Origin: a virus
Strand: one strand, 5' to 3'
Length of the DNA stretch: 23,296 bases
Virus record (IMG/VR): IMGVR_UViG_3300046007_011567
Coordinates: 1 to 23,296 of that record
Below, one piece after another: positions 2,965-23,296 of this stretch. Both the position numbers and the translations under genes were made by a program. The notes beneath the pieces are model-generated. The model saw only the letters and a program-made list of their open reading frames with translations, was not told the origin of the DNA and did no database searches. The number at the start of each line of letters is the position of its first letter. Position 1 is the first letter of the stretch.

Positions 2965-3351
2965 ATGACCGACGGTCTGAAGCAAGTGATACTTGTGCGG
3001 CGAGATTTGAAGATGAAGAAATCTCACGTTGCTTCGCTGGTGGCGAAAGCCTCAACCGAGTTCTTCCTGGCGAACGACGAGTCTGCGAGGGGCGACACCC
3101 TCTCGGTCCGCCTGACGCCGGAGGAGACCGACTGGATTAACAGTGGGTCCATTAGGATAGTGTTGGGTGTCGGATCTGAGACTTCACTCAAGAACCTCAC
3201 CTTCAAGGCGGAGCTCGCAGGTCTGCAGTGTTATCCCGTGGACGGCAAGATATTCGACGATGAGGGACCTGTGGAGACCCTGTGTGTCGCGATCGGCCCA
3301 GATGAAGCGAGCAAGATCGACGAGATAACAGGCAACCTAAAGTTGTTGTAA
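2965..3351 (+). CDS. PTH2-family peptidyl-tRNA hydrolase
   Basis: The 128 residues, close to the usual length of about 115-120, align along the whole PTH2 fold. The N-terminus KQVILVRRDLKMKKSHVAS (6-24) matches the family's KQVIVVRTDLKMGKGKIAA-type start. The C-terminus VAIGPDEASKIDEITGNLKLL region (from about 108) matches the typical AIGP...IDxITGxLKLL end. The enzyme releases peptide from stalled peptidyl-tRNA, recycling the tRNA. PTH2 is the archaeal/eukaryotic type, whereas most bacteria rely on the unrelated Pth1. The usual glycine-rich MGKGK is MKKSH here, and the usual GRT loop reads GKIF, so activity may be altered. An AGGAGG site lies just before the ATG. It directly precedes two tRNA genes on the same strand, which fits a tRNA-related role. 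Confidence 0.8.
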   Translation: MTDGLKQVILVRRDLKMKKSHVASLVAKASTEFFLANDESARGDTLSVRLTPEETDWINSGSIRIVLGVGSETSLKNLTFKAELAGLQCYPVDGKIFDDEGPVETLCVAIGPDEASKIDEITGNLKLL

Positions 3352-3386: not shown

Positions 3387-3468
3387 GCCGCTCTGGCGGA
3401 ATCGGCAGACGCAGCGGATTCAAAATCCGCCACCGCGAGGTGTGTGGGTTCAACTCCCACGGGCGGCA
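3387..3468 (+). tRNA. tRNA-Leu(CAA)
   Basis: This 82-base gene folds into a full class II tRNA. The acceptor stem GCCGCTC pairs with GGGCGGC (one T-G pair), and the discriminator base is A73. The anticodon stem GCGGA/TCCGC encloses loop TTCAAAA with anticodon CAA at 3421-3423. A variable arm CACC/GGTG is closed by a GCGA tetraloop, and the T stem is GTGGG/CCCAC. The long variable arm and A73 are leucine identity features. It reads UUG. The CCA end is not encoded. Confidence 0.95.
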
Positions 3469-3482
3469 CTTGATACTCAAAC

Positions 3483-3556
3483 GGAACCATAGCTCAATAG
3501 GTTAGAGCATCTGACTCATAATCAGCCGGTTCTCGGTTCAAGTCCGAGTGGTTCCA
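3483..3556 (+). tRNA. tRNA with CAU anticodon, probably tRNA-Ile2
   Basis: This 74-base gene has a perfect acceptor stem (GGAACCA/TGGTTCC), D stem GCTC/GAGC, T stem CTCGG/CCGAG, and anticodon loop CTCATAA with CAT at 3517-3519. The top pair of the anticodon stem (T27-C43) is mismatched. A paired G1-C72 end rules out an initiator tRNA. The CAU anticodon fits elongator Met or the Ile isoacceptor whose C34 becomes lysidine and reads AUA. The phage's own TilS, encoded 0.8 kb downstream, favours Ile2, as does the Ile2-like T-loop stretch GGTTCAAGTCC. CCA is not encoded. The antisense endonuclease gene ends inside this tRNA. Confidence 0.9.
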
Positions 3557-4319
3557 CTAATTTTTCTACTGTAAAAGTTGAGTTCTTAATTTCGTCAATC
3601 TCTTTTCTCTTGATGATCACAAGACTTTTAGGAAATTGGCTCCATTTGCACCTGTCTTTTTCTGTTTCATATCCTTTTACCTCAACGTACACATCGATGG
3701 ATCCTAACCAGAAATCAGGATAATAGGTTCTTTCTCCGCTGAAATGATACGTGAAACCTCGATCGCACTGTTGCGGATTGAGGTTTTTCTCTTTTGCCCA
3801 CCTATAGAATTCAGCTTCCCAATTTCCCGTAACTACAATCCCGTCTATTTCGACTTTTCTTACTTTACCTCGGTTTCTTCCCTTGTATGAATTCGGATTA
3901 GAGTGAACAACTTCTTTCATTTTTTCTGACTGCTTCTTCCTCCTTTCGTCTGTCCACCACTCTTTCATGATTTTGCTTTTTTGAGCCCTTTGTTCAATTT
4001 TTTCAGGAGGAATTTGTTGAGGCTGAACGAATTTTTTAACATCTTGCACGATTTTCTTTCTGTGAGCATCACAATATTTTGCAAAAGGCATGGATGTGAA
4101 GAATTTTTGATCACACTTTACGCAAGATTTTTCCAACTTCTTGAGAAAAATCTTGCCCTTTTGTGATACACTTGATTTGGCCTTGAGGCTCTCGCTGATT
4201 TTTTTATTCTTTTCTTCTCTGCAATTTTTTGATGCAAACGACCTCGCACATTTAATACTGCAGAACCTACCCGACCCTACTTTGTCTTTGATTTCTTGCT
4301 CACAGTTTTCGCAGTTCAT
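3522..4319 (-). CDS. Probable homing endonuclease, zinc-finger plus PD-(D/E)XK nuclease
   Basis: The N-terminus of the 265-residue protein has two zinc-ribbon-like clusters: C3-C6-C20-C24 and C66-C69-C83-H86. A basic helix SKIMKEWWTDERRKKQS (115-131) resembles the NUMOD-type DNA-binding repeats of phage homing enzymes. The C-terminal domain has the PD-(D/E)XK pattern: an upstream Glu (168 or 170) in GNWEAEF, Pro201-Asp202 in YYPDF, and Glu213-Val-Lys215 in VEVKGY. Such free-standing nucleases cut an allele lacking the gene and spread by repair. The gene is antisense to its neighbours, clearly AT-richer than them, and lies between the CAU tRNA and tilS. Its last 11 or so codons are read from the antisense strand of the tRNA. 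No strong ribosome binding site precedes the ATG. Confidence 0.7.
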   Translation of the reverse strand: MNCENCEQEIKDKVGSGRFCSIKCARSFASKNCREEKNKKISESLKAKSSVSQKGKIFLKKLEKSCVKCDQKFFTSMPFAKYCDAHRKKIVQDVKKFVQPQQIPPEKIEQRAQKSKIMKEWWTDERRKKQSEKMKEVVHSNPNSYKGRNRGKVRKVEIDGIVVTGNWEAEFYRWAKEKNLNPQQCDRGFTYHFSGERTYYPDFWLGSIDVYVEVKGYETEKDRCKWSQFPKSLVIIKRKEIDEIKNSTFTVEKLVEPLGLEPRTG

Positions 4320-4387
4320 ATCAGTAAGTATTATTTGTGATTTGAACCAACCTCTAAATTAATGGTCCTTTTTGAAAGTGTAGCAAA

Positions 4388-4999
4388 ATGATTAGATTCC
4401 TTGGGAAACTTCCAAAAAAGTGCATTGTTGCCTTTTCCGGGGGCGTGGATTCCGTAGCTGTTACAGACTTTCTTGTAAATGGTGGAAAAGAAATTGATCT
4501 GGCTTTCTTTCACCACGGAACTGCTGCGTCTGAAGAAGCGGAGATCTTCGTGCGGGAGTTTTCCAAGCTTAGAAAACTACATTTGAACGTTAAGAGAATT
4601 GACAAGCTTGTCCCTCCTCGAGGAATCTCTCAAGAAGAACACTGGCGGAATTGTCGTTATGAATTTCTCGAAAGCTTCACTCTCCCAGTCGTTACGTGTC
4701 ATCATCTTGACGACGCTGTTGAAACTTGGATTTTCTCTTCTCTCCATGGTGAATCGAAGCTAATCCCTTACTCTCGAAGAAACATCATTAGACCATTCCT
4801 AATTTCAGAGAAGAAAGATCTTATTTCCTGGGCAAATAAGCGATCTTTGAGATGGCAGGAAGACATTTCGAATACAGACCTGAAGTACACAAGAAATTTG
4901 ATTCGACACGCTATCGTTCCTCAGGCATTAAAAGTGAACCCAGGACTTAGAAAAGTCCTCAAGAAGAAGTATTTGAATTCGATTCTCGGTGTACAATAA
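4388..4999 (+). CDS. tilS: tRNA(Ile)-lysidine synthetase, short form
   Basis: The 203-residue product carries all the motifs of the TilS N-type ATP-pyrophosphatase domain. The PP-loop SGGVDS is at 17-22, HHLDDAVET at 105-113, RPFL at 135-138, and EDISN...RNLIR at 158-173. TilS adenylates C34 of tRNA-Ile(CAU) and joins lysine to it, switching the tRNA from AUG/Met to AUA/Ile. E. coli TilS is about 430 residues; this one ends soon after the catalytic core and lacks the C-terminal tRNA-recognition domains, so it may rely on simplified recognition. The likely substrate tRNA lies just upstream, separated only by the antisense endonuclease gene. The ribosome binding site is weak. Being closer to TilS than to other PP-loop enzymes rests on the RNLIR and HHLDD motifs. 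Confidence 0.9.
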   Translation: MIRFLGKLPKKCIVAFSGGVDSVAVTDFLVNGGKEIDLAFFHHGTAASEEAEIFVREFSKLRKLHLNVKRIDKLVPPRGISQEEHWRNCRYEFLESFTLPVVTCHHLDDAVETWIFSSLHGESKLIPYSRRNIIRPFLISEKKDLISWANKRSLRWQEDISNTDLKYTRNLIRHAIVPQALKVNPGLRKVLKKKYLNSILGVQ

Positions 5000-7492: not shown

Positions 7493-9895
7493 TTAGGCAA
7501 CTCTGTAAGTTATTGTGAGGTAGATCTCAGCGTTAGCAGGCACATCTGCGTAAGAAATGACAGATGAAGATGTACCTACACCCGTCTGACCATACATGCG
7601 AATCTGCGTCTCAGTATCTGCAACATAGCCCGACATTGAATAGTAAGAATTTGTAAATGATATCCATCTTCCTACGGCAGCAGCACCGACGCCTGTCGAA
7701 GCATAAGGCAATCCCGTGATAACGAAGTTACCTGTTGCGGGCGTGCCGGCTCTTGCTGTTTGTTTGGCATAACAAGTCGCAATACATAGTTTTCCAACTC
7801 TGACATAATAAGCTTTCTGGTTTGTTGTATCCATGGTACCTGCATTTCCACCGCTTGCTCCGGTGAAGACAGGATTCCAAGTTCCATAATCATATTGGTC
7901 TATAGTGCTACTTGTTCGTGTTCCATTCGTTGGTCCTGATTGACCAATCCATCCTATGCCATATGTTGCGTTGAACGCGGCAATACCATTATAGATGTGA
8001 AACCTTGTATTGGTGATCGTCGTGTCTGGGGTTGTGGTTCCAATACCAACGCTTCCGTTCGTGTTATCCCACCAGAAGTTGTTGCTGCCGCTGAGAACTC
8101 CGCCTGTTCCGGCCACAACCACTTGTCCCGCAGAAACATTGCTTCCTGTAAGAGAACCAGAAATACTGGTGGCATAGACATTATTCCATCTCTTCGAAGA
8201 GGAACCGAGGCTGTATAGGTTGTCTGTTCCCGGAAGGAGAGAACCCGTGACGGACATCGACCCATTGACAGCGAGTTTATCACCCATGGCATTCGTGCCG
8301 ATGCCGACGTTGCCGCTCGTGTCAATTCTCATCCTCTCTGTCGCAGCAACGCTGAGAGCCAGCACGGTTCCGCTCGTGTTGGTTCCGATGGTCGCGAGAG
8401 ATGACCCAAGAGAAACCGCGAACGAGTTTGTCTTACCTTGATCGGCAACTAGAATTCCTCTACCTGAAGAGTCTGCTATGAAAGTCGCAGCCATTCCTGT
8501 GTTGCTGTTAGGAGCGACGACAAAGAGACGAGTGACACCTGTATCGATACCGGTGACAGAGGGCGTGGTTGAACCAATCCCAGCATTCTGTGAAGTATCG
8601 ATTGTTAAAGCTGTAACATTTGCTGTTCTAATTCCAAGCGTGTGACTGGTAACTGTTCCAATGAGGCCGCCGCCTGAAAACGCGTAATTCAGCAGCTCAA
8701 CATTATTCGTAGCATCTCGAATCGCCAGGTTTGTTGTCCCAAGAGCCGTGACGTAAGCAGTGGCGCTGACTGTCGGTGTATCATTTCCTGCTCCCACATG
8801 GAGGAGTGCAAGCGGAGCATTTGTTCCAATTCCCACCCGCGTGTTCGTGTTATCCCACCAGAAGTTGTTGTTGCCGCTGAGGACACCGCCTGTTCCTGCT
8901 ACGACCACTTGACCTGCAGAGACGTTGCTACTTGTCAGAGACCCCGATATATTTGTGACTTTTAAGAGATTCGTCGCCTTAGTGAACGTGAAGTCTGCAT
9001 CTCCTCCGAACGATCCACCGTCATTAAACTGAACATGCGTGTCAGAACCGCCAGGTGTTGCCGAGCTCGCGAGAAAGTTAGTTGCAACTCCGGCACCCAA
9101 AGAAGTTACGTCCCAATAACCTCCTCTGTTCGTTCCGCCTGTCTCAAATATTCTAACTCTGTTCTGGTGGACGTCGATGGACACACCAGTGTTCAATGAC
9201 GTATTCGTGACAGACTTGCTGAGAAATATCTCTCCACCCTCATCGCCTGATGAATTTAGAGACTTAAGCGTTCCGCTTGCAACAATGTCAACGGCAGACG
9301 TGATTTGACCTGTGAATCGTGTTCCGCTGACTGTTGCAACTACTGAATCGTTAATTCCGAGAGTGACTGTTGAGTTGGCACCGCCATCTGTCAAGGAAAG
9401 GCCTGTTCCTGCTGTCAATGACCTTTCCGCTGTGAGCGAAGAGTCATTTCCTATCGTAACGAACGCTGATGTCGAGGGCGCAAGATTAGGCGCTGAAATT
9501 GTGACGGCTCCGGAAGATCCCGTAAAGATGGTGACGTTTGATCCTGCAATGAGATAAGAGGACCCATCATTAAGTCTTGTGAGAGACCCTGACAAACTGT
9601 TAGCATATACATTCGCCCATCTGTTTCCGCTTGATCCCAGGTCATAGAGCCCTGTGACTCCGGGCAAGATAGAACCTGTGACTGCAGTCGTTCCGCTGAG
9701 AAATAAGGAGTTTAGAGCTCCTCCTGCAGCTGGGAAGTCTGATATCTTGAGCAGAGAGCCCGAGACACCGACGAACTGTACAGATCCTTCGCTGAGGACC
9801 TCTAATCGCAGTGTATTACCTGCAGACCCGCTAAACTGTATGTTTGGGTTTCCTGAACCTATTCTCTGTGGATCTATTAGTATGTCGCGAGGCAT
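7493..9895 (-). CDS. Tail-fibre protein with probable receptor-binding C-terminus
   Basis: The 800 residues begin with a short N-terminal segment (ILIDPQRIGSGNPNIQFSG) typical of fibre subunits. A repetitive beta-rich shaft follows. It has one SGSLTRLNDGSSYLIAG module near 100 that leads into an NDSSL...NDSVVATVSG cassette. It also has two [19 protein letters not shown] cassettes leading to VGIGT, and two LGSS...RWxNVYA hinge motifs. From about residue 668 a DYGTWNPVFTG segment opens a C-terminal domain with a YYVRVGK motif and a GLPY segment, a pattern common at the tips of phage fibres. An AGAAGAAA site precedes the ATG. The 73-base gap to the upstream 2651-residue gene has no good late-promoter octamer, so cotranscription is likely. 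The role in host adsorption is inferred from these shared motifs. Confidence 0.85.
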   Translation of the reverse strand: MPRDILIDPQRIGSGNPNIQFSGSAGNTLRLEVLSEGSVQFVGVSGSLLKISDFPAAGGALNSLFLSGTTAVTGSILPGVTGLYDLGSSGNRWANVYANSLSGSLTRLNDGSSYLIAGSNVTIFTGSSGAVTISAPNLAPSTSAFVTIGNDSSLTAERSLTAGTGLSLTDGGANSTVTLGINDSVVATVSGTRFTGQITSAVDIVASGTLKSLNSSGDEGGEIFLSKSVTNTSLNTGVSIDVHQNRVRIFETGGTNRGGYWDVTSLGAGVATNFLASSATPGGSDTHVQFNDGGSFGGDADFTFTKATNLLKVTNISGSLTSSNVSAGQVVVAGTGGVLSGNNNFWWDNTNTRVGIGTNAPLALLHVGAGNDTPTVSATAYVTALGTTNLAIRDATNNVELLNYAFSGGGLIGTVTSHTLGIRTANVTALTIDTSQNAGIGSTTPSVTGIDTGVTRLFVVAPNSNTGMAATFIADSSGRGILVADQGKTNSFAVSLGSSLATIGTNTSGTVLALSVAATERMRIDTSGNVGIGTNAMGDKLAVNGSMSVTGSLLPGTDNLYSLGSSSKRWNNVYATSISGSLTGSNVSAGQVVVAGTGGVLSGSNNFWWDNTNGSVGIGTTTPDTTITNTRFHIYNGIAAFNATYGIGWIGQSGPTNGTRTSSTIDQYDYGTWNPVFTGASGGNAGTMDTTNQKAYYVRVGKLCIATCYAKQTARAGTPATGNFVITGLPYASTGVGAAAVGRWISFTNSYYSMSGYVADTETQIRMYGQTGVGTSSSVISYADVPANAEIYLTITYRVA

Positions 9896-9968
9896 TTTCT
9901 TCTCTAATTATCGTGTGAAGACAAACGTTCGCCCGCAGTAAGCTTATGAAAAGTCAACTTATTAGTTG

Positions 9969-12900
9969 TCAGGACTCGTATTCAACTTCAAACTTGTGGT
10001 CTTTCCTGCTTGCTGTGATCGTGTAGAAGTACCTTGGTTTTATTCGGAATATTCTCATAAACCATCCTCTTCCGATTTTGACACAGTTATTCTTTACTTC
10101 TACCACGAACAAGGATTGCCATTTGCCGATGGGCGTGATCTGTACTGTGATGGTCTCCTCGTCGACTAACTTTTCCCAATACTCCGGAAGATCGATGAAT
10201 TCAGATTCGGACTGCCCACGAGCGTATACACCGTTTTCAGGACCTTCCAGAGATCCGTAACGAAGTTTCCAACCTTCTTTTGTCGGGTGCGGGATCACGA
10301 AGCTCTTTGTCGCCGCGGCGAACGTACCGTTTACTTCAAGAGTGAATCCTGGTGATGAAGTTCCTATTCCGACACGCTGGTTTGAATTGCTCCACCAGAA
10401 GTTGTTGCTTCCGCTGAGGACTCCGCCCGTACCGGCTACGACAACTTGTCCAGCAGAAACGTTGCTTCCTGTCAAGGACCCGCTTATGCTTGTTGCATAA
10501 ACGTTTCTCCATCTGTATGTTGGCGATCCAAGATCGCGAGCTGCATCACCGAAAGGATAGATGGACCCGGTGATAGACATGTCACCGTTGACAGCGAGCT
10601 TGTTTCCATTTGTGCCGTTGGTTCCAATTCCAACGTTACCGCTGGCATCTATTCTCATCGCCTCCGTTGTACTTGCCAGCTGGAACAGATGTGTCTGTGC
10701 CTTGTAAGTGTTGAGCGATACACCGAATACCTGTCCGCCTACTATAAGTGCCGAGGCTGCGTTGCCTGTGAGGCTGCTTGAGACAAAAAGATTCGCGCCC
10801 AGCGGGTTGTTCGTATTGATTCCGACTCCGCCGCTACCTGTGACAAAGAGGATCGATGTACCAGCTGAGTTCTGAACATCAAAAGTTCCTACCCCGCCGG
10901 TCGGGGAAGCAACACCTTCACGAACGACCATTGTAGGAGTTGCTGACGTAGAGGAACCAGAAACAAAGAGCCTGGCGGTGTAAGTTGCAGTTCCAATCCC
11001 TATGTTTGATGAAGTGTTTATTCTCATCGCTTCGGATGAATTTGCACCGAGGACGAGAACTTTGCTAGAGTTTCCTTGAACATACAGAGCAGAGGAGTCA
11101 TTGTAGATGCTTCCTACGGATGTGGCACTCTGATTAAAATCTATTCTTCCGCCCGTAGAAGTGCTTCCAACGGTGAGTGTTGTGTAACCAGCATTGCTGT
11201 TGGGTATTGTGGTTCCGATTCCGACGTTTCCTACAGTTGAGACGGAGAGATATCTGGTTGACGTGCTGTTGTTGTATTGGAGATAGAATCCATTCGATGC
11301 ATTGTTGTCAGTGATGACCTGCCACAAGTCTGTTGAGTCGATTTTGAAGTTGTACCCTGCGACTCCAGAGACGCCGCTCGTTCCTTCCGCCGAGATTTGT
11401 GGCCTCGTAGTTGATCCCTTAAACACATGGAGAGGGAACGTTGTGGGTGCTGCTCCAATACCGACGTTTCCGCTTCCTGAAACAAGAAACACACTTGTTC
11501 CTAAGTAATTTTGAGCATCGAGGACATACGAAGGACCTGTCGGAGATGCCACGCCACCCCTAATGATCGCGACCGACTCAGAAGCTGTCGAAGAGCCCGA
11601 GACGTAGAGACGTGCAGTGAAGCTCGAGGTTCCGATTCCAACACTTCCGTTGCCCTTAATCCTCATGCGCTCGGTCGAGTTGTAACCTCCGTTGTAGAGA
11701 CTGCCGAACACCATGTCCACTGTAGTACCGTTGTACCTCGTGTCGATCTGACCGGTGATGTTGGAACCGTCTCTCCACGTGAGTGAGTGATAGGAGTTGT
11801 CCGCAGCGTAAGTCGTTTTCAGCGTGAGAATTTCTGCATTGCTTCCTCCAAGATTTACTTCCAATCTTGCGTTTGGAGATGTTGTAGCAATTCCTACGCG
11901 GCCGCTGCCGCTGACGAAGAAGAGAGAGGTTCCTTCAGAGTTCTGAACTTCCAGAACTCCTGCACCACCTGTCTGAGAAACAACTCCTGCCTTGATGATG
12001 GCAACGGAGTCTGCAAGTGTCGCTGAACCTGACACGAAAAATTTGGAAGCAGGAGGATTTGTCGTTCCTATTCCGACAGTTCCGCCGGCCGTGTTGAAAA
12101 CCGTGTTATTACCACCATTATTTATCCTGAGAGTGCCGTTATAGGATTGTATCGTCCCAACGCCGCCTGTTCCCGTGGAGTCGATAACGATGCTTTGTGT
12201 ACCAGAACCAACAGAGAACTTTCCTATCGGAGACCCTGTTCCAATTCCTACTCTTCTGTTCGTATTGTCCCAGATGAAATCGTTGCTGCCGCTAATAACA
12301 CCACTCGTTCCGCCGAGGAGCACCTGGCCCGCCGACACGTTGCTGCTCGTTATGGAACCTGAGATATTTGTTACCTTGAGGAGGTTTGTTGACTTCGTAA
12401 AAGTAAAGTCTGCATCTCCTCCAAAAGTTCCTCCATCATTGAACTGAACTTGCGTGTCAGATCCTGCGACATAAGAGGCGCCTGATGCGGTATTACTGAT
12501 TGTGACTGCGCCTGAGGAACCCGTGGTTATTCCCACACCGCTTCCTGCTATGAGATATGATGTACCGTCTGTGAGACGTGTCAGAGATCCGCTTAGGCCT
12601 GCGTTGTGGTTAGTCACACCCGTGAAGGTGGATCCGCTGATAGTCGCCACAACTGAATTGTTTATTCCCAGCGATACGGTACTGTTAGCACCTCCATCAA
12701 CAATTGTAATTCCTGTCCCTGACGTGAGCGATCTTTCATTGGATAAAGATGAATCATTTCCAATAGTAACGAAAGCTGAAGTCGACGGAGCAAGATTAGG
12801 CGCCGATATTGTGACTGCGCCTGAGGAACCAGAAGAGATAGTGACGTTGTTGCCTGCTACGAGGTAGGATGTACCATCTGACAATTTTGTCAAAGATCCA

Positions 12901-15900
12901 CTGAGTCCTGCGTTAAATTTAACCGCACCCGTGAAGGTGGACCCACTTATCGTAGCTACGACAGAGTCGTTAATTGCGACAGTGACGTTACTATTCGCAC
13001 CTCCATCTGTAATTGTAATTCCTGTTCCCGATGTGAGAGATCTCTCATTTGACAGCGTCGAATCGTTGCCAATTGTTACGAATGCTGACGTAGATGAAGC
13101 TAGATTTGGTGCAGCAATTGTTACCTGACCACTTGACCCAGTCGCGACTGTCACATTGCTGCCAGCGACAAGATAAGAAGATCCGTTTGTCAGTCGAGTC
13201 AGAGAACCGCTGAATCCTGTTGATGCAACGACGTACGTTCCTGTGAGAGCTCCCGTGGTCTTGTTGTACGTAAGACCAGAGTTGGCACCAAAAGTTCCTC
13301 CATCATTGAACTGAACTTGCGTGTCAGATCCTGCGACATAAGCAGCTCCCGTAGCTGTATTGCTAATAGTCACAGCTCCTGTAGAACCTGTGACTATGCT
13401 TATGTTGTTGTCAGCGATAAGATAAGAAGATCCATTAGTAAGCTTTGTGAGAGAACCGCTTAGTCCTGCGTTGTGATTGGTCACTCCTGTGAAGGTCGAA
13501 CCACTTATTGTCGCCACGACTGAATTGTTTATTGCCAAAGTTACAGTGCTGTTTGCGCCGCCGTCTGTGATAGAAATACCAGTTCCGGATGTGAGGGCTC
13601 TCTCGTTTGAAAGGGAAGAGTCATTTCCTATCGTGACAAATGCCGATGTCGATGGAGCCAGATTTGGAGCTGCAATTGTTACAGATCCGTTCGATCCTGT
13701 CGTCAGAGATATGTTGCTACCAGCTATGAGGTAGTCTCCTCCCGTTGAGAGTTTTGTGAGAGATCCACTGAAAGCTGTCGAGTATGTGTTGCGCCATACT
13801 TTAGATGCAGAACCAATGTCATGCGTGTTATCCGCACCCGGGAGAGCTGAACCTGTTACGGACAACGAACCATTTACAGCAAGTTTGTCTCCCGTTGAAG
13901 TAGTTCCAATTCCTACATTTCCTGAACCTGAAACAACAAGCAACGAAGTACCTGAACTGTTCTGTATATCGAGAAGAGCTCCTGTGGGAGATGCAACTCC
14001 CGATTTGTAGATGATTCCTTGATCGGTAGAAGTCGAAGAGCCCGTCACATACAGCCTGGCCTGGTTAGCTACGACCCCAAGTGTTCCTCCTGCTAAAATA
14101 TTTCCATTGGAATCTAAAACAAGCCTCTGGGTAACACCGTCACCGCCGTAGAAAGTGTGTTGCAAAGAGGTATATGTGTTAGTAGCAACACCAAAAAAGT
14201 TAGGTGCACCAATTTGTATTCCTTGAGACGATCCCGCATACGTTCCTGAGACGTGAAGAATTGCAAGTGGAACATTTGTTCCAATTCCAACGCGACCGTT
14301 TGAATTACTCCACCAGAAGTTGTTGCTTCCGCTGAGGACTCCACCCGTACCGGCCACAACCACTTGACCAGCAGAAACATTGCTACCTGTGAGAGAACCG
14401 CTGATGCTCGCCGCATAGACATTTCTCCAACGCTTGATCGAAGATCCTAGATCTCTCGTGTTGTCTGTGTCAGGATTCACAGATCCTGAGAAGACAGAAT
14501 TACCATTGACGACCAGCTTGGAATCAAGCAGTGTTGTTCCGATTCCGACGTATGTTCCATCGTCATAGACGCTGCTGATCGCCAAAGCATTGCCGCTTGT
14601 GAACTTAGACAGGTAGTTTGCCGTGCCGCTGCCCGTGATCACATTGCTGCCGCTCACAAGCGATCCGAAGTTCACCCATGTGGGAGCAGAAGTTCCGGCT
14701 GATTGCAGTATCTGTCCTGAAGTTCCTGCTGCGCTGGACGAGAGGTTTGTGGATGTATTGAAATACGCCACACCTCCCTGGGTACCTCCTGAAATATTAT
14801 TAGAAGGAGTACCTGATATCGGTATCGTCTTATTGTAGAGATTATCTGTCGACCCCGTGGTGACAAGGTTGATCTCGTTTCCTGCCAATCCGGCCTTCCA
14901 CCTGTCGGTGACCGTGTCCCAGATGATGGATCCCGTGGTGTTCGCTGTCGTGTCCGCAACGTACACACCGCCGAAGTTGAGCGGAGAAGGGCCTGCGTTG
15001 AGGAGGATCGCGTTGTCCTTGATGTTTACAACCTCGGAGTTGATGATCGAGGAAGTTCCCAGGACGCGCAGGTCACCGGAGATGATCATGTCTCCCGAGA
15101 AGGAACCCGTCCTCGCGTATACGTCTCTCCAGTACTTCGTAGAGGAACCAATGTCGTGTGTGAGATTCTGCCCCGGGAGGAGAGACCCTGTGATGGCTGT
15201 AGGACCGTTAACGGAGAGAGTGTTTCCGTTGGTCTCAGTGGTTCCAATTCCTACCGATGAACCCACGTTGTAGATCACGCTGGAGTTTGCGATGGTGTTT
15301 GCACCGGTCCAGACTGGGACGTAGTTCGCAGTTCCTGTGCCGCTCACAGTTCCTGCAGGAGCACTTGAATTTATGGTCACTGCACCGTTCGACCCAGTCA
15401 AGATTGAAATGTTTGATCCGGCAATGAGATAGGAGGTTCCGTCAGTGAGACGTGTGAGAGAACCACTGAATCCTGTGAACGATCTAACAGTTCCGCTCAC
15501 GACCATGTCTCCGGCAAAGACTGATTTATCTGTGTCGCCAATTGTGCCCGTGACATACAGGAAGACGTCGTTTCCTGTTGTTACAGCAGATACAGACCTT
15601 CTCAGGATGACTTTGCCTCTTTGCGCCGTCATTGTGATATTACCTGGTGAGGTTGCAGATGCCGCCGCACCTGTGCTGATGTTCACGCTTCCGGCAGCAC
15701 CTGTTCCTCCACTGGGCAGCGACCCTGCACTTATTGTCACGCTTCCGGCAGTAGCACCGCCACCCGTTGAAGTAGTGTCACCCGCCGTGAGTGTTATGGA
15801 ACCTGCTGTGGAGACTGTATTTGTGTTTCCTGCTGTAATCGACACGGATCCACCAGGAGAAGACCCACCCACTCCTTCTCTCGCCGTTATCGATATATTG

Positions 15901-17924
15901 CCTCCACCAACGCTGCTCGCTCCCACAGCAGAAGTAATCGATATTCCCTTTCCTGTCTGAGTCGTGCCCCTTGTCGATCCGTTTATGGAAAGTGCTGATG
16001 TCGTATTGTTTGCCGAAAAGTTTGTTATAGTGTGGGTCTCAAGAGTTCCGCTGACCATCAGGTCACCGCCGAACACTGAAGCTCCATAAGTTGAAGATGA
16101 CGATCCGCTGACAAAGAAGTAGACGTCAGAACCTACGCTTTCTGCTGCATAAGAAGACCCAAGTCCTCCTGCAATGGAGACTGACCCTGTGGTGTTGAGA
16201 CGTGGCGAAGGTGATAACTCGTTCCACTGATAGAATGTCGGTGCTATGTTCGATATTGTGACTGCACCGTTGGATCCGGTCGATATTCCAACGTTTGTAC
16301 CTGCAATGAGATAGGAAGTGCCATCTGTCAGATTTGTGAGAGATCCACTGAGTCCTCCGTTAAACTTGACAGCGCCCGTGAAGGTTGATCCACTGATAGT
16401 GGCAACCTTGCTGTCGTCTATCGTCAGTGTGACTGTTCCACTCGTTCCTCCGCCTAGCAAACCGTTACCGGCTGTCACTCCATGGATTGTTCCGCTATTG
16501 ACTGTGGAAAGAGTTATCGATCCGTTCGATCCGCTCGTGACGGACATGTTGCCACCAGCGATGAGGTATGAAGTACCGTCAGAAAGCCTGGTGAGAGATC
16601 CGCTTATTCCTTCGGTGGCAACTATTGTTCCACTTACCTCAAGGACATCTCCGAACATCTCGAGTGATCCGCTGACTGAAACGTCACCACCGAAGACCGA
16701 TTTTTTGGAGTTAGCACCCGAACCGGTTATTGACCCGCTGACAAAGAAGAATACATCCGACCCAACAGACTGAACCGTGTAGCTCGACCCAAGCGCGCCT
16801 GCGATAGAAATAGAGGCCGTTGTGTTTAGCTGAGGTGAAGGTGAAAGTTCATTCCACTGATAGAACACTGGTGCGGTATTCGATATGGTGACTGCACCGC
16901 TAGAACCTGTGGAGATTCCTATGTTATTTCCCGCGACTAGATAGGAAGAACCATTTGACAATCGCGTGAGAGAACCACTGAATCCTACCGAAGCAACAAT
17001 GTATGTTCCTGTCAAAGCCTGCGTAGTTTTATTGTAAGTCAGGCCCGATGACCCAGCTGCAACTCCACCGTCGTTGAATACTACTTGTGTATCTGAGCCT
17101 CCGATTGGCCCTGTGGCACCCGTAGATCCTGTAGCACCAGTGCTTCCTGTAGGACCAGTCGCTCCCGTGGGTCCCGTAGACCCTGTCACACCTGTACTTC
17201 CAGTAGCACCCGTCGCTCCTGTTGCTCCTGTTGCTCCTGTTGCTCCTGTTGCTCCCGCTGGTCCAGGGGATCCGTTGGCTCCCGTCGCACCAGCAGGTCC
17301 CGTAGGCCCTGTAGGCCCTGTAGGGCCAGTCGCTCCTGTGCTTCCTGTGGCACCAGCAGATCCTGGGGTACCTGTGGCACCAGTGCTTCCTGTAGACCCT
17401 TTTGGACCTGCAGGACCTGCAGGACCTGTCGGACCTGTCGGACCCGTAGAACCTCCGCCGCCACCACTTGATGAATTAGCTAGAGAACTCCAAGACGTAC
17501 CAGTCCACGCAAGTATTATGCTCTCATAGTTGGAAGTCAGCGTCTTTGATGAAGAACCATCTATTTTTATATTTGAATTTCCACATTTAACAACAATGTT
17601 GTTAGTGGAAGCTTTTCCAAGGTAATCTTTTATGTAACAGGTTTGTCCTGGTTTCGCCCCATCAGGTAAGACTACTGTGACACTTCCCGATCCTGAATCT
17701 GCTATGGAAATGACAAGTAGTGTGACGTTTCCACTGTAAGATACGGTCTGACCTGGTTTTACTTCTATGACTGAGGTGCTCTGTATGAACCTTCCGGTTA
17801 ATTGCAATTCTCCGACATTGCCAGGGAATCCTACCTGTAAGTCGGATGCAACGACTGTTCTCTTTAGTTTACCGTTCTCAGTTACGAAGATTAAAGCGTC
17901 GTTTGACTTTTTTGCTATCGTCAT
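9969..17924 (-). CDS. Giant repeat-built fibre protein with collagen-like segment
   Basis: This protein has 2651 residues. An N-terminal domain (1-155), possibly for virion attachment, leads into about 115 residues of Gly-X-Y repeats (about 157-275) that can form a collagen-like triple helix. A long shaft follows. It has nine SGSLT-x-L-x-x-G-x-x-YLIA modules, three NDSSLSNER cassettes, two WNELSPSP domains, three SNVSAGQV cassettes and many VGIGT repeats joined to LFVSGSST-type units. The last 115 or so residues (from [12 protein letters not shown], followed by [15 protein letters not shown]) form a C-terminal domain found in many bacterial and phage surface proteins. It starts one base after the upstream stop with a weak ribosome binding site, implying translational coupling. 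It is probably a homotrimeric long tail fibre; trimerisation and receptor contact are inferred. Confidence 0.85.
12580..13760 (-). repeat. Tandem cassettes of the fibre shaft
   Basis: Three copies of a module of roughly 0.25-0.31 kb follow one another inside the 2651-residue gene. Each encodes SGSLT...SYL(I/V)A, then [11 protein letters not shown], NERxLTSGTGI and [14 protein letters not shown]-type segments. A further copy lies in the 800-residue gene at about 9300-9600. Protein identity is very high while many third codon positions differ. Confidence 0.8.
14146..14290 (-). repeat. Module duplicated at the left edge of the window
   Basis: This segment encodes [20 protein letters not shown] and the following [18 protein letters not shown]. 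The left-edge fibre gene encodes almost the same residues at 1-130, with about three quarters or more of the bases matching by eye. Confidence 0.75.
17104..17454 (-). repeat. Collagen-like Gly-X-Y repeat region
   Basis: About 115 codons encode [12 protein letters not shown] and related triplets almost without a break. At 17212-17256 five 9-base units (GTTGCTCCT or one-base variants) stand in tandem on the plus strand and encode repeated GAT triplets, a site prone to length change by slippage. The segment lies between the N-terminal domain and the shaft of the giant fibre. Confidence 0.9.
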
Positions 17925-17925
17925 C

Positions 17926-20898
17926 TCAAGTCACCGTCAGACCTGTCGTATCTATTTGCAACGACGTGAGTGTTGCATCAGTAATTAACGAGAGGTCTGA
18001 CTCTTGTCTAATCTTTGCGACGCCATCGAAGTAAGGGAGCGAAGATGTGACTTCTGAGCTTAGATTTTGGGACGTGGTCAACATGGGATCGACTTTTTCG
18101 TTGTATATGTATCCGATCTTTCTCTCGTCTTGTCTGTATCTCTGTCTGAAGAAGTTGACCTCGGCCACAGCAGGTCCCACGTTATTTGTTCGTACAGTTC
18201 TCAGCAATTTAGACTGTGTGAACTTATTGAAGTTATTTCTCGTCGTCGCGTCGTCAGACACAGGTGAGTCTTCAATATTGATGAATTTTGTGTATTGCCT
18301 CTGCTCGAGCATGTCTCTAAGCTGACCATACCTGTTTCTTCTGAAGACAGCCTTTGAGTTCATGGGAAGTCCGCTGTAAAGACCGTACTTCCAGCCTCTA
18401 ATGATTGGTGACACTCCGAACACGTACGACTCGTGGATGCCTTTTGTCGCCGCTTGATTCAGTGCAGTCCCGTCAGTCACTGAAGCATTCGGTCTGGGGT
18501 CGACTCTGTATGTCCTGAACTGAGGATAGTTGTTTCCACCTATCTTGGGTCCGTCCGGGTCACCTGTGATTTTGTAGGTCTTGACAGTAACATTGTCAAT
18601 ACCGGTCATGATGAATTCGTTTGCCTGTGTTGCGTCCCAGTAGGTCGAGAATTGAACTCTCCACTCACCGGGTGGGAAAGCTGCAGGCACCGTGGGTGTC
18701 CCTCCATACTGTAAAGCACTGTCAAAATTCTTGAAGATGTCGTAATAGAACTTCTTGGTTGGAGGCGACGGTGAGCCTGATGGGTTGTTCGACCCTGTTA
18801 TCTCTTCGAGCACTATGCCTGTCGATGCGGCTGATGGAGTAAAAGCAGACCCTGTGAGCGATGTGGTCAAACTAAAGCTTCCGTAACCTGCGACTGCCCT
18901 GTCGTAACTTAAAGTCCACGGATAAGATGACGTCACGTCCATGTAGCACTTGCTGTACTCTTGTGATGTAAGCGACGCATCATAGCTTCCTGAAGTATAG
19001 AGAATGAAATTCTCATTATCGCTTGAGAGACCAAAAAGTCCTCTTTTATAAGGATCGATTGTACCTGAAAGCGGTGCGGGCCCCCAGAAATTATAGTTTT
19101 CAGATCCTATAGTGGTACTTCCTGATCTATAGACTGTCGACCAAGGCTTGGACGTAGGCGATCGCGACCAGTCTATCTCGAGTCCGTCAGCTGCATATGA
19201 AGACAGCTGATAGGACTTTGTGTATAACGTGTTAGCACTGTAGACAACGCTAATGTTTGTCTCTATTGCAGAATATCTTGTTGTGACAAAATTGTAGGTC
19301 CTTCTCGGAGAGAAATAGATGTACTGATTTCCAACTGTAAAGAAGACTTGTAGTTTGACGAGTATTCTGTCAGAAGAGCTTAAAGATATTGGAGACGATA
19401 TGGTCCAAGGGATAGTGTAATAGTTCCAAGAAGTTCCTACTGTTACTTCGTCAGAAGTTCCTATTAGACTCTTAGATGATCCATCCCAAGAATATATTAG
19501 GGCACGTATCTTTAGAGGTGTATTGCCATATGCATTCAGTTTAAAATTCCACGTCCCAGCCGCAATGGTCGTCACGTTAGGGTCCAAGAGGTCTGTGATC
19601 CAAACAACATCTGGGTCAGTCGCAGAGAGGTCATATGCTATTGACTGCCAGCCCACTACAGGAAGTTCTACAGGGCCGCTGTTTCTCGATATCGTGACTG
19701 GAGATGTGGGCTCTTGAGAGCGGTCTAGTGATCTATCGTATCCGCTCGATTGTTTTGGGGCATCAGCCGAGTTTAACGCACTCCAGAAATAATAAGTTAC
19801 GTTTTGGGCAGCAAGCTCAAAGTCTTGTTCGTAAACATCAGAATTTTGACTGAAATTGTAATTGGCGTACGTCATGTTGTTGAGGTCGCCAAATCCAAAC
19901 AAGAACTTTACAGTGTCGTCAGTCGTCATCGATCCTGTGACGAGTTCACCTGATGTCGCAGTCTTTCCAAGATTCACGTCCGTCGGCATTAAAAAAGATA
20001 CACCAAGCGTATTGTCTAGAGACGAGCCTATTCCATACATGGCAGGTATGTTGTAAGGAACTGATCCGCTGAAGACACCTCTTAGCGCATTTCTTGCACC
20101 GATGGGAGTAACGTCCGTACCGTTCAATTTACCGGGAAGAATTGGAAGAAAACCGTTTAAGCTCCTCGTTTTGTCTTTGTCCAACACGGCGAGGTTGCCC
20201 AAAGTTAAGTTCCAGTTGTCGAAATATGAGCTGGACAGTGCGTACGACCAGTCCGCTGTTAAATTCGTAGAATCAAGACCGAGCGTATTAGACGTTTTTA
20301 CTAGTCTTTTTTCTGGGCTGTATTTCGTCTCGTACGGAAACGACCATGTCCATTCGTTATTGACAGTTGGGTCGTTGTCAAATCCTTCCGAACTTCTTGA
20401 AAGAGGTATCGTATTGAAAAGCATGAGTCCTGTATTTGAAGACCCAATGTTTCCTACGGGACTTAACGCATACTCTGATGTTGATACCCAAGTATTTGCA
20501 CCGTTTGCCTGAAAGCACGTGCTTATATCAGGTATGCATGAGTCGTAGTATCTCTCATTTGCATCGTAACATTGTACCAGCCTATTGGACGTCCTCGAGA
20601 GCCTGTCTTGCCATGGTACTTGCCTGTATGAAAGTTCAGGGACGTTATTAACGCTTAGGCCATAACTGGGATCAAAGGTGTGTGCGTAATATTTGCTGAA
20701 TAATCTGCCACGCTGACCTTCAGACAGGATAACTCTGCCGCCTGATTTTACAACTGTCAACATCGATCCCGTGACGTAATCGTCCTGCATAGTCCCGTAG
20801 AACGATGCGTTGTAAGTGATGTCGAACTGGTCTAGTACGGGGTCGTTTCCTATTACGTCTTTTACTGCATCTGTGAAGACCTTCGTGAAATCGCTCAT
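17926..20898 (-). CDS. Large structural protein of unknown function (990 residues)
   Basis: I recognise no named family. The 990-residue product is rich in Ser, Thr, Tyr, Asn and Gly and poor in Lys, typical of beta-rich virion proteins. It begins with a helix ([14 protein letters not shown]) and ends with a long, charged, more helical part that includes [20 protein letters not shown] and, a little further on, [13 protein letters not shown]. No membrane segment or catalytic motif is seen. Its ATG overlaps the preceding stop in an ATGA, and the giant fibre gene starts one base after its stop, so the three products are probably translated in linked amounts. A baseplate, tail or fibre-attachment role is inferred from position only. 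Confidence 0.75.
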
Positions 20899-22715
20899 GG
20901 TACGTATTTCTTGCCTTCCCTTACATAGGATCCATAGAAAGTAATGTTGATCTTTCCTGCGTCTAGTTGTACGTCGTGTCCGTTTGAGTCGCCCAAGTCC
21001 ATGAGGAAAGACGACGAGAGTATGCTCGCTCGTCCCACAATTAAATTCACTGTATTTTGAACGTTTGCTCTGAAATTTAAAAATGCCGGCCTTGTTTTGT
21101 TAGCAACAAGAGTTAATTTTTCTCCAGGATAGATGAGATAAGGCGATTGTCTTCTAGACCCAACGAAATAGTAGGCAGGTAGCTTCATATTGAAAGAGAT
21201 GTAGTCGGCTCCTCCAAAAACCGTCTTGTCTGGATTTAAGAATGTCAAGCTGCTTGAGATGTTTGACAAAATAGAAGCTCTTTTTGATCCTGACACATAA
21301 GAAGGATTTCTAATTTTTTTCGATCTGCTCAAGACATTTGAGTCTGCAGTTATGTATTCCGAGCCAAATATTGAACCTCCACTGGGAGAGAAACCCGTCA
21401 TTCCTCTTCCGAATGCGTCGACTCCTGTGAGTGTAGAATCACCAAAATCAACCGTTAAGTCGTCTAAACTGCTTGAAGCAAAACTCAATGCGCTCGAAGC
21501 TGACACCCAGTTATAAGAAGTCTTGCCTATTCCTGGTGTTCCGAATAACTGTCTATTGTGTATCACACGGATACCGTTTGTCACCTCGACTTCAGATTTG
21601 ACAATAACGCTTCCTGTGAAGAATTTTCTGTTACCTGAATAAGATGCGCTAACAATTGCGTCAACTTTTGTTTCATCTTGGTCTACGCCGAGAGGTGTTA
21701 ATTGATACCATATGGCATCAAAATCGCTTACGCCTAAAGGAGTTCCTCGTTCGATTATTGGAACAAGTTTCATGTCTCTTTGAGTGTCTTCCTCATGTGT
21801 AAGAAATCCTCTGCAGACAAGGTCTCTTATCGACCCGGTACCATAAGTTTTTTGAGACACCAATGCGAGTGTTATGCCCGGACCGCCATAGTTGTACACA
21901 ACGGTCGAACCGCTTCTCGGGATATCTGCAAACGTGTAAGTTGAACCGCCGTAAGATATTGTTGTTCCGTTGCTGACTAAGTCTGAAAAGGGAATGGAGT
22001 CTAACCCAAACGTATAGTCTCCGTACGAAGAAGTCATTAGAGTCAAAGCAGTTTTGTCGTTAAACCAGCCATTTCCGAAGCAGAAGGGGACTTCAAATAC
22101 TACTTTTTCTATTAGGAAAGGTTCGTCTATTGGAAGAGTGAACGTGTCTGTCGGTAGTGCATCATAAGAGGCGCTTCGCTGAACGCTTTTTGGTAGGTCG
22201 AGAACTAAATGCTTGCTGTAGTCACTTGGATTTAAGGCAAAAAGAGTCTGTATGCTTTCTTCAGATAGTTTTTGCTTTTTCTCTGTGTCCAATGAAAGAT
22301 TGGATAAATTTGTACGGAATATTCTTAGACTTCCTATCCCCAATCCATTCCCATGACTGTCAAACCACTTGTCGTCCTCCACGAAATTTGATCCTGACGT
22401 GCCAAGAATTAAAGATGGAGAGAAAGAAGATCTTGTGTCGACAGCAAAATGATTTCCAAAACCATCGAGCTCAGATGTAGATTTCTGAGGTATGTTCCAA
22501 TTTCCCGATCCTACGTTGAAATAGTAGATGCTGCTGCTGTTAGGAAGCATCTTGATTCTTGATTTCACGTCAAAAGACACTTTTATTTGTGTCTTATTGA
22601 TTAAGCTGTTGGAGAAAGACCCAGGTGTTTCGCCTATTCTGGGTGCAGAACCAGTTGTGTAGAATGAGTCGCTCTGGTTTTGTTCAAATAAAGAATTTTC
22701 TGAAAAAGAGCTCAC
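20895..22715 (-). CDS. Structural protein of unknown function (606 residues)
   Basis: The product has no domain I can name. Its 606 residues are rich in Ser, Gly, Thr and aromatic residues, beta-rich in appearance, with no signal peptide or membrane helix. Translation starts at a GTG that overlaps the preceding gene's stop in a GTGA, and its own stop overlaps the next start in an ATGA. These junctions, the shared composition and the strand place it in one structural operon with its neighbours. It may be a baseplate-proximal or fibre-connector protein. The frame is open throughout and the opposite strand holds only short shadow frames. Confidence 0.75.
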   Translation of the reverse strand: MSSFSENSLFEQNQSDSFYTTGSAPRIGETPGSFSNSLINKTQIKVSFDVKSRIKMLPNSSSIYYFNVGSGNWNIPQKSTSELDGFGNHFAVDTRSSFSPSLILGTSGSNFVEDDKWFDSHGNGLGIGSLRIFRTNLSNLSLDTEKKQKLSEESIQTLFALNPSDYSKHLVLDLPKSVQRSASYDALPTDTFTLPIDEPFLIEKVVFEVPFCFGNGWFNDKTALTLMTSSYGDYTFGLDSIPFSDLVSNGTTISYGGSTYTFADIPRSGSTVVYNYGGPGITLALVSQKTYGTGSIRDLVCRGFLTHEEDTQRDMKLVPIIERGTPLGVSDFDAIWYQLTPLGVDQDETKVDAIVSASYSGNRKFFTGSVIVKSEVEVTNGIRVIHNRQLFGTPGIGKTSYNWVSASSALSFASSSLDDLTVDFGDSTLTGVDAFGRGMTGFSPSGGSIFGSEYITADSNVLSRSKKIRNPSYVSGSKRASILSNISSSLTFLNPDKTVFGGADYISFNMKLPAYYFVGSRRQSPYLIYPGEKLTLVANKTRPAFLNFRANVQNTVNLIVGRASILSSSFLMDLGDSNGHDVQLDAGKINITFYGSYVREGKKYVP

Positions 22716-23296
22716 TTATTTCTACCTCTCTCACTCAAACTGTCAAACATTAAATTATCAAACAGACCAGACCTTAGTGTCATGTTGGTTTCTATGCTAC
22801 CTGATTTGTATAATTCTACAATACTGATTGAATCAGTGTCGTTCATGTCTGTCACATAATCGACAGGTAGCATTGATGAAATCTGAGTCCTCTGATTGTT
22901 GAAATTTATTGTCTTCTGATCGTTAAAGGCGCCTGATCTCACAAAAGACGACGAGTCTCTGTCATTTAATACTTTTCTTGTCGACTTTCTCTTGTTGCGC
23001 GGAGGAGTAAGTCTAAACGTTGCTCCTCTTTCTAGACCGGGCCAGTCTTTATAGCTGTTGAGAGATATGGTGTAATCTGCTGTGTTGGATCCGTCTGTGT
23101 CTGTGTAAGTTCCGTTGTAAACAGACCCACCATTTCTGTATTTACCTCTACTGTCTTTTCTCAAGACGTAAGACAGGTCTCTATACCTCTTGCCGTATGT
23201 TGATCCACCGCAAGCAAATATTGCCATCGTTGCATTTTCATCGGACTCATATTGATGAAATATCCTGGGACCATATCGGAACTCGAGAACTCCTGA
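22712..23296 (-). CDS. Structural protein, N-terminus beyond window
   Basis: The frame is open to the right edge. It has an in-frame ATG at 23227, but that codon has no clear ribosome binding site. The 23 codons before it read like protein (GVLEFRYGPRIFHQYESDEN), so the true start is probably outside the window. The visible 194 residues are polar, with an Arg/Lys-rich stretch (RLTPPRNKRKSTRKV) and a C-terminus rich in Ser, Asn and Leu. No family is recognised. Its stop overlaps the GTG of the 606-residue gene by four bases, so it belongs to the same leftward structural operon. Confidence 0.7.
   Translation of the reverse strand, partial: SGVLEFRYGPRIFHQYESDENATMAIFACGGSTYGKRYRDLSYVLRKDSRGKYRNGGSVYNGTYTDTDGSNTADYTISLNSYKDWPGLERGATFRLTPPRNKRKSTRKVLNDRDSSSFVRSGAFNDQKTINFNNQRTQISSMLPVDYVTDMNDTDSISIVELYKSGSIETNMTLRSGLFDNLMFDSLSERGRNK

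Follow-up and report, generated by a model that had tools for sequence, protein, structure and literature searches.

Known lysidine synthetases and the phage locus

Bacterial lysidine synthetase (TilS) is known as type I, with the C-terminal domains CTD1 and CTD2, and as type II, with CTD1. In the known enzymes these C-terminal domains bind the tRNA and distinguish tRNA-Ile2 from tRNA-Met (PMC12514573). The TilS of phage MIJ3 was reported in 2019 as a protein of unknown function, and the CAU tRNAs were called Met with no link drawn to the enzyme (PMC6892783). The TilS proteins of the Pseudomonas jumbo phages MIJ3 and PA5oct fall within the same clade as the TilS described here (≈43% identity) and are also single-domain proteins of 203 aa. 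The PA5oct genome has three CAU tRNAs and its tilS is AUA-depleted as in our locus, but the tilS genes of MIJ3 and PA5oct lie several kb from the CAU tRNAs, unlike the gene studied here. The jumbo phage RsoM2USA encodes a TilS of 349 aa (PMC8504454), and giant algal viruses encode lysidine synthetase (PMC11953307); the available portions of these two accounts report neither a paired tRNA-Ile2 nor an AUA pattern. According to a review, the tRNA(CAU) of a T4-like vibriophage carries lysidine at position 34 and reads AUA, modification of the phage tRNAs being ascribed to enzymes of the host (PMC13191261), whereas the phage described here has its own enzyme near the tRNA.

A TilS encoded by phages and a phage tRNA with lysidine had thus each been described before, but separately. 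In the literature searched, with subscription journals mostly outside it, we found no report of the linked pair, of a one-domain TilS or of an AUA-free tilS, and one of the results below would likely surprise a specialist. It is not settled what purpose tRNA genes serve in phages, and arguments from codon usage tend to be statistical and weak. In the present case three things point to a single pathway across many phage lineages: a tRNA, the enzyme expected to define its decoding, and the lack of one codon in the gene of that enzyme. We propose that the locus is very probably an AUA-decoding module of the phage, consisting of its own tRNA-Ile2 and a catalytic-domain TilS, with tilS kept near AUA-free for early translation.

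The DNA analyzed (the window) comprises 23,296 bases and corresponds to an entire IMG/VR virus record. It encodes tail-fibre and collagen-like proteins and is therefore a phage fragment. A Pth2-type peptidyl-tRNA hydrolase gene, a tRNA-Leu (CAA), the CAU tRNA and tilS follow each other on the plus strand, and the relevant features are as follows.

2965–3351, plus strand: peptidyl-tRNA hydrolase of the Pth2 type, in synteny with the tRNA-tilS block (PF01981, E 2.9e-19)
3387–3469, plus strand: tRNA-Leu, anticodon CAA, a neighbour within the same block (ARAGORN; Rfam 52.8 bits)
3483–3557, plus strand: tRNA with anticodon CAU (3517–3519), tRNA-Ile2 by similarity, without encoded CCA (ARAGORN; Rfam 70.6 bits)
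3522–4319, minus strand: endonuclease-like ORF, probable free-standing homing endonuclease (phrog_15137, E 4e-15)
3563–4985, no strand: low-GC block (endonuclease and foreign tilS), exchanged relative to close relatives (DNA matches, aa identity)
4388–4999, plus strand: tilS, 203 aa, catalytic domain only, AUA at 0 of 16 Ile codons (TIGR02432, AlphaFold, codon counts)
7493–23227, minus strand: structural and tail-fibre genes, AUA-rich (117 of 293 Ile codons; codon counts, tail-fibre families)

A second IMG/VR record (L002) contains 9.85 kb of the window with zero mismatches. An assembly chimera is judged unlikely, as this identity would argue against assembly error if L002 is an independent assembly, though both records may come from the same sample. 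No sigma-70 promoter or terminator signals above chance were found in the region. The Pth2 gene adjoins the tRNA-tilS block in six relatives (L003, L034, L035, L038, L039, and L041). Pth2 is the archaeal/eukaryotic type of peptidyl-tRNA hydrolase, here found in a phage, where it may serve to recycle the peptidyl-tRNA that drops off at rare codons. Further upstream (1378–2855), a NADAR-domain gene, scoring above the cut-off with the riboflavin-intermediate N-glycosidase model, overlaps a patatin-like phospholipase gene head-on.

The CAU tRNA resembles tRNA-Ile2

Both ARAGORN and Rfam (E 7.6e-14) called the tRNA, with the CAU anticodon placed in a cloverleaf. The first-pass annotation had described it as a non-initiator tRNA, which fits its 49% identity to an fMet tRNA, and had suggested a test that tells Ile2 from Met. 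We made this comparison as paired similarity to CAU tRNAs from five bacterial genomes, that is, with few references, and in all five the window tRNA resembled Ile2 more closely than elongator Met. The identities to Ile2 and elongator Met, respectively, were 86.7 and 69.3% for a Bacteroidales genome, 78.7 and 64.6% for Terrimonas, 76.0 and 61.8% for Flavobacterium, 73.7 and 68.4% for E. coli, and 66.7 and 57.3% for Facklamia. The E. coli tRNA labels were taken from RefSeq, while the other genomes were labelled by likeness to E. coli and B. subtilis sequences. The top E. coli database matches to the window tRNA also carry a tRNA-Ile annotation. Elongator Met was ruled out as the isotype by the paired comparison, and identification as tRNA-Ile2 is supported by this sequence likeness, as a good but not a formal classification. 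Some phage tRNAs labelled Met may accordingly be Ile, as our results suggest.

The E. coli enzyme uses the pairs C4:G69 and C5:G68 as identity elements, but such elements vary among species (PMC12514573). The window tRNA does not have both, but A4:U69 and C5:G68. Given the variation among species, these pairs are not defining for all tRNA-Ile2. The anticodon arm (3509–3525) has a U27:C43 mismatch, which leaves an anticodon stem of four pairs. The same mismatch is seen in the tilS-side CAU tRNAs of L038, L053, and L066–L069 and in one of the two in L050/L051. Wider decoding has recently been tied to four-pair anticodon stems (PMC13092985).

A TilS with the catalytic domain only

The tilS gene and its catalytic motifs, both noted from the sequence at first reading, were confirmed. 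The 203-aa ORF scores 105.8 bits with TIGR02432 (NCBI cut-off 93.6) and contains the PP-loop SGGVDS, HHLDD..E, and RNLIR motifs, which are largely invariant in 35 viral relatives. Its distance from the CAU tRNA (0.83 kb) is also the 0.8 kb originally given. The AlphaFold model has a pLDDT of 95 and a pTM of 0.90, and its best five PDB matches are all TilS (E 6.6e-15 to 2.9e-13, TM 0.80–0.83 by query length). TtuA-type structures rank after these, from E 1.5e-10, and the TtcA model scores a mere 18 bits on the protein. The fold is hence nearest to TilS and not to TtuA, LarE, MnmA or other PP-loop enzymes. A chance ORF is excluded by the TIGR02432 score, the AlphaFold model and the PDB matches.

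The catalytic domain, fold and motifs are the same as in the bacterial type I and type II enzymes (A. aeolicus 1wy5/2e21). Unlike these, the phage protein has neither CTD1 nor CTD2, the match spanning residues 25–223 of the 317-residue A. aeolicus TilS, and it therefore belongs to neither type. Judged from sequence and model, it is a TilS homolog that should work like TilS, as a variant outside types I and II, and it presumably makes lysidine at C34 of tRNA-Ile2. A one-domain TilS could be useful for learning what TilS requires in tRNA recognition.

The viral relatives are ≈195–240 aa long and share a C-terminal motif, VNPGL..K(K)K. A profile scan of IMG/VR found at least 460 relatives, 80 of which were kept for analysis. 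When applied to ≈85,000 genomes of bacteria and archaea, the same profile yielded a single phage-like match, on an 8-kb contig; the remaining matches were ordinary bacterial TilS or weaker. By these profile matches, the catalytic-domain-only TilS characterizes a viral clade with hundreds of loci in IMG/VR.

Linkage of the CAU tRNA and tilS

The same pair was sought in related phages, as the first-pass annotation had advised, and tRNA and tilS proved to be physically linked in many of them. In 17 of 59 dereplicated viral loci, tilS has a CAU tRNA on its own strand at a distance of at most 100 nt. Altogether 28 CAU tRNAs were found no further than 6 kb from the dereplicated viral tilS genes; 19 of them are at most 100 nt away, vs. 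5 of 74 for other tRNAs (Fisher 8e-10), and all 19 share the strand of tilS. In a bacterial control a CAU tRNA was found within ≈1.5 kb of tilS in 1 of 30 Bacteroidota loci. The CAU tRNA is located 5′ of tilS in some clades and 3′ in others, and this mixed placement therefore points to repeated selection for closeness and not to a single inherited layout.

In close relatives (TilS 58–65% identical) the tRNA is upstream of tilS in every record with sufficient upstream sequence. The gap is 16–22 nt in L004, L007–L009, L034, L035, L038, L039, and L041, 88 nt in L040, ≈1 kb in relatives with the endonuclease, and 5.1 kb in L037, where an insert lies between the two genes. This ≈5-kb insert (L037 886–6000) contains a 1413-aa ORF and an apparent adenine methylase. 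A PrkA-type serine kinase gene (L037 7181–9175; AAA_PrkA 457 bits) adjoins tilS in the same record, and a similar ORF is found in L010 (7530–9467).

In larger relatives such as PA5oct, L048, L056, L064, and two 640-kb phages, the CAU tRNAs are found elsewhere in the genome, and many distant viral relatives have tilS without a nearby CAU tRNA. The expectation that tilS would not occur without any CAU tRNA held for the close relatives. It did not hold for some distant records, including one of 222 kb, in whose available sequence, possibly fragments in all cases, no CAU tRNA was found. In phages without a CAU tRNA, TilS could act on the host tRNA.

A tRNA-Leu (UAA) is located 48–54 nt 3′ of tilS in L012 (10657–10742), L015 (9504–9589), and L019 (10738–10823), in the slot occupied by the CAU tRNA in L053 and L066–L069; the available sequence of L012, L015, and L019 yielded no CAU tRNA, and L093 and L097 are counted in the same group. 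In L013, L014, L016, and L017 tmRNA genes, matching the tmRNA and permuted-tmRNA families, are found close to tilS.

AUA codons are frequent in the phage and nearly absent from tilS

Counting AUA, as had been proposed from the sequence, gave 145 of the 425 Ile codons in the window (34%), or 19.3 per 1000. For comparison, AUA use is 4.9 per 1000 in E. coli, and more than 10 per 1000 is considered high (PMC12514573); the GC content of E. coli is similar to that of the window. The AUA share is close to that expected from the A-rich third positions (0.37 against 0.39), and AUA is therefore freely tolerated in the phage and not specially enriched, no enrichment beyond base composition being found in the window. 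AUA use is higher in the structural block (117/293 vs. 27/101; p 0.02).

The tilS gene of the window has no AUA among its 16 Ile codons. In the 59 dereplicated viral loci the tilS genes contain 66 AUA codons vs. 237 predicted from the genes around them at each locus (O/E 0.27, z -14), and 34 of the 59 lack AUA altogether, vs. 2.7 expected. The next most depleted codons have O/E values of 0.77–0.79. General avoidance of A-ending codons was ruled out, as the other A-ending codons are not comparably depleted (O/E 0.79–1.32). The ORF nearest to tilS, used as a control, has an AUA O/E of 1.20, and when a random similar gene was drawn at each locus 2000 times, the value was never below 0.84 vs. 0.27 for tilS. 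The depletion is robust to background ORF cut-offs of 100–300 aa. When the sequences are clustered at 60% identity, it is present in all 23 clusters, which rules out that a few related sequences drive it. In PA5oct the counts are 2/14 for tilS vs. 122/212, and in the two 640-kb phages they are 1/15 and 0/18 vs. about half. The viral genes were found by an alignment scan with two peptide patterns; a bias against AUA in this search is judged unlikely because the patterns contain little isoleucine.

Bacterial tilS frames are mostly 320–670 aa long and, unlike those of the phages, not depleted in AUA (O/E 0.97 in each of two groups, 29 Bacteroidota and 30 Bacillota), which rules out that all tilS genes are AUA-poor; the PP-loop part of the Bacteroidota genes is mildly low (O/E 0.70). 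Avoidance of AUA is not clear in the lineage of L053, L066, and L067 despite the adjoining CAU tRNA. The O/E value is 0.20 for viral tilS without a CAU tRNA within 6 kb vs. 0.35 for those with one. As the depletion is no weaker without a near CAU tRNA, it goes with the enzyme and not with the pair.

The tilS gene was exchanged together with a probable homing endonuclease

The gap between the CAU tRNA and tilS contains an endonuclease-like ORF on the opposite strand, the last codons of which are antisense within the tRNA. The phrog_15137 match stands beside a Pfam search with no family above cut-off and a PDB sequence search with no match. Homologs (42%) are found at the same position in L006 and L010, while the site is empty in L034, L035, L038, and L039. 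In Vibrio phage Kuja and Escherichia phage PhaxI, too, members of the family are found directly next to CAU tRNAs. Such insertions are usually explained by homing, and from these matches the ORF is probably a free-standing homing endonuclease.

The genes flanking the block are 66–92% identical (aa) to those of L034, L035, L038, and L039, and the DNA matches to L035 end at 3562 and return at full strength at 4986. The tilS gene of the window is 61–62% identical (aa) to those of the same four records and has a GC content of 0.42 vs. 0.52–0.57, whereas their tilS genes are mostly 75–90% identical among themselves. Relatives that match both flanks keep another tilS directly beside the tRNA. The strong flank matches, the divergent low-GC tilS and the inserted endonuclease together therefore show a block exchange, in which the endonuclease and a foreign tilS displaced the resident tilS, with the end of the tRNA as the left border.

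Alternative explanations

It is very improbable that the tRNA is an elongator Met and the pairing coincidental, with the adjoining tilS serving the host tRNA-Ile2 only, or nothing. ARAGORN does label the tRNA Met, from its anticodon, many viral tilS loci lack a nearby CAU tRNA, and the PA5oct tilS is several kb from its CAU tRNAs; yet the tRNA is nearer to Ile2 in each genome compared, its best E. coli matches are annotated tRNA-Ile, and CAU tRNAs cluster at tilS far more than other tRNAs do. A stronger competitor, although still on the unlikely side, is that the phage TilS chiefly adds lysidine to the tRNA-Ile2 of the host, or stands in for a host enzyme that during infection is lost, inhibited or too slow, with the phage tRNA as an optional part. 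This would agree with an AUA depletion at least as strong without a nearby CAU tRNA and with the records that have tilS and no CAU tRNA found. It agrees less well with the overall strength of the tRNA-tilS linkage and with the lineage of the window, where the tRNA, wherever visible, is always present and adjacent to tilS.

The lack of AUA in tilS might also arise because the gene was captured recently from AUA-poor hosts, or because early or short genes avoid rare codons in general, so that no bootstrap is involved. Bacterial genomes are often AUA-poor (PMC12514573), and the PP-loop part of Bacteroidota tilS is itself mildly AUA-low. We regard this as improbable, however, since the other codons of viral tilS resemble those of the surrounding phage genes, the depletion is found in all of the divergent clusters and never in random similar genes, and TilS like that of the viral clade was found among bacteria only on the single 8-kb contig. 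Equally hard to credit as the coincidental pairing is the view of the block as passenger of a mobile element, in which the endonuclease spreads and drags tilS along with no benefit to the phage. The replacement of the resident tilS in the window and the introns and other inserts at the same place in relatives would fit such a history, but most relatives have tilS beside the tRNA without the endonuclease, a tilS is always retained, the new gene having taken the place of a working one, the motifs are intact in the 35 relatives, and the AUA pattern requires selection on function.

Proposed mechanism and insertions at the locus

The AUA-decoding module, proposed from the sequence in the first-pass annotation as decoding by the tRNA and TilS pair, is supported by the Ile2 likeness of the tRNA, the linkage, the AUA-rich phage and the AUA-free tilS. 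In this module the AUA capacity of the host would be too small for the phage, and the AUA-free tilS would be made early in infection. The phage TilS would then convert C34 of the phage tRNA-Ile2, perhaps that of the host as well, to lysidine. Host IleRS would charge the lysidinylated tRNA, and ribosomes could read the many AUA codons of the phage genes. The AUA-rich genes would be translated after this, above all the structural block as the likely beneficiary. The tilS gene enables the reading of AUA and is itself AUA-free in AUA-tolerant genomes, which suggests that it is translated while AUA decoding is scarce; it may be kept nearly AUA-free so that it can be translated before lysidinylated tRNA-Ile2 is abundant. 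On the basis of codon usage, AUA decoding by the phage may be independent of host TilS.

A bolder version, which we consider rather unlikely, is that AUA decoding acts as a timing switch, with AUA-rich genes poorly translated until the AUA-free tilS arms the tRNA-Ile2 of both phage and host. If so, the one-domain TilS, having no tRNA-binding domains, would select its tRNA in a new way.

The locus also serves as a landing place for mobile elements, with the probable homing endonuclease in the window, which arrived together with the replacement tilS, and group I introns in the tRNA of relatives. Such introns are found inside the CAU tRNA of L003 (87.8 bits) and L005 (39.2 bits, under the Rfam cut-off, E 1.9e-8). 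Group I introns are known from bacterial tRNA-Ile2 in Acidovorax and Burkholderia (PMC8450103); those of L003 and L005 likewise interrupt tRNA-Ile2, but in phage genomes and near tilS, and the tRNA of the window is intact. The genome of L003 (G001) has a second group I intron at 61747–62090 (77 bits). In L005 an apparent second, broken tRNA 5′ half (90–190) is located upstream of the intron-split tRNA and is perhaps the relic of an earlier tRNA copy.
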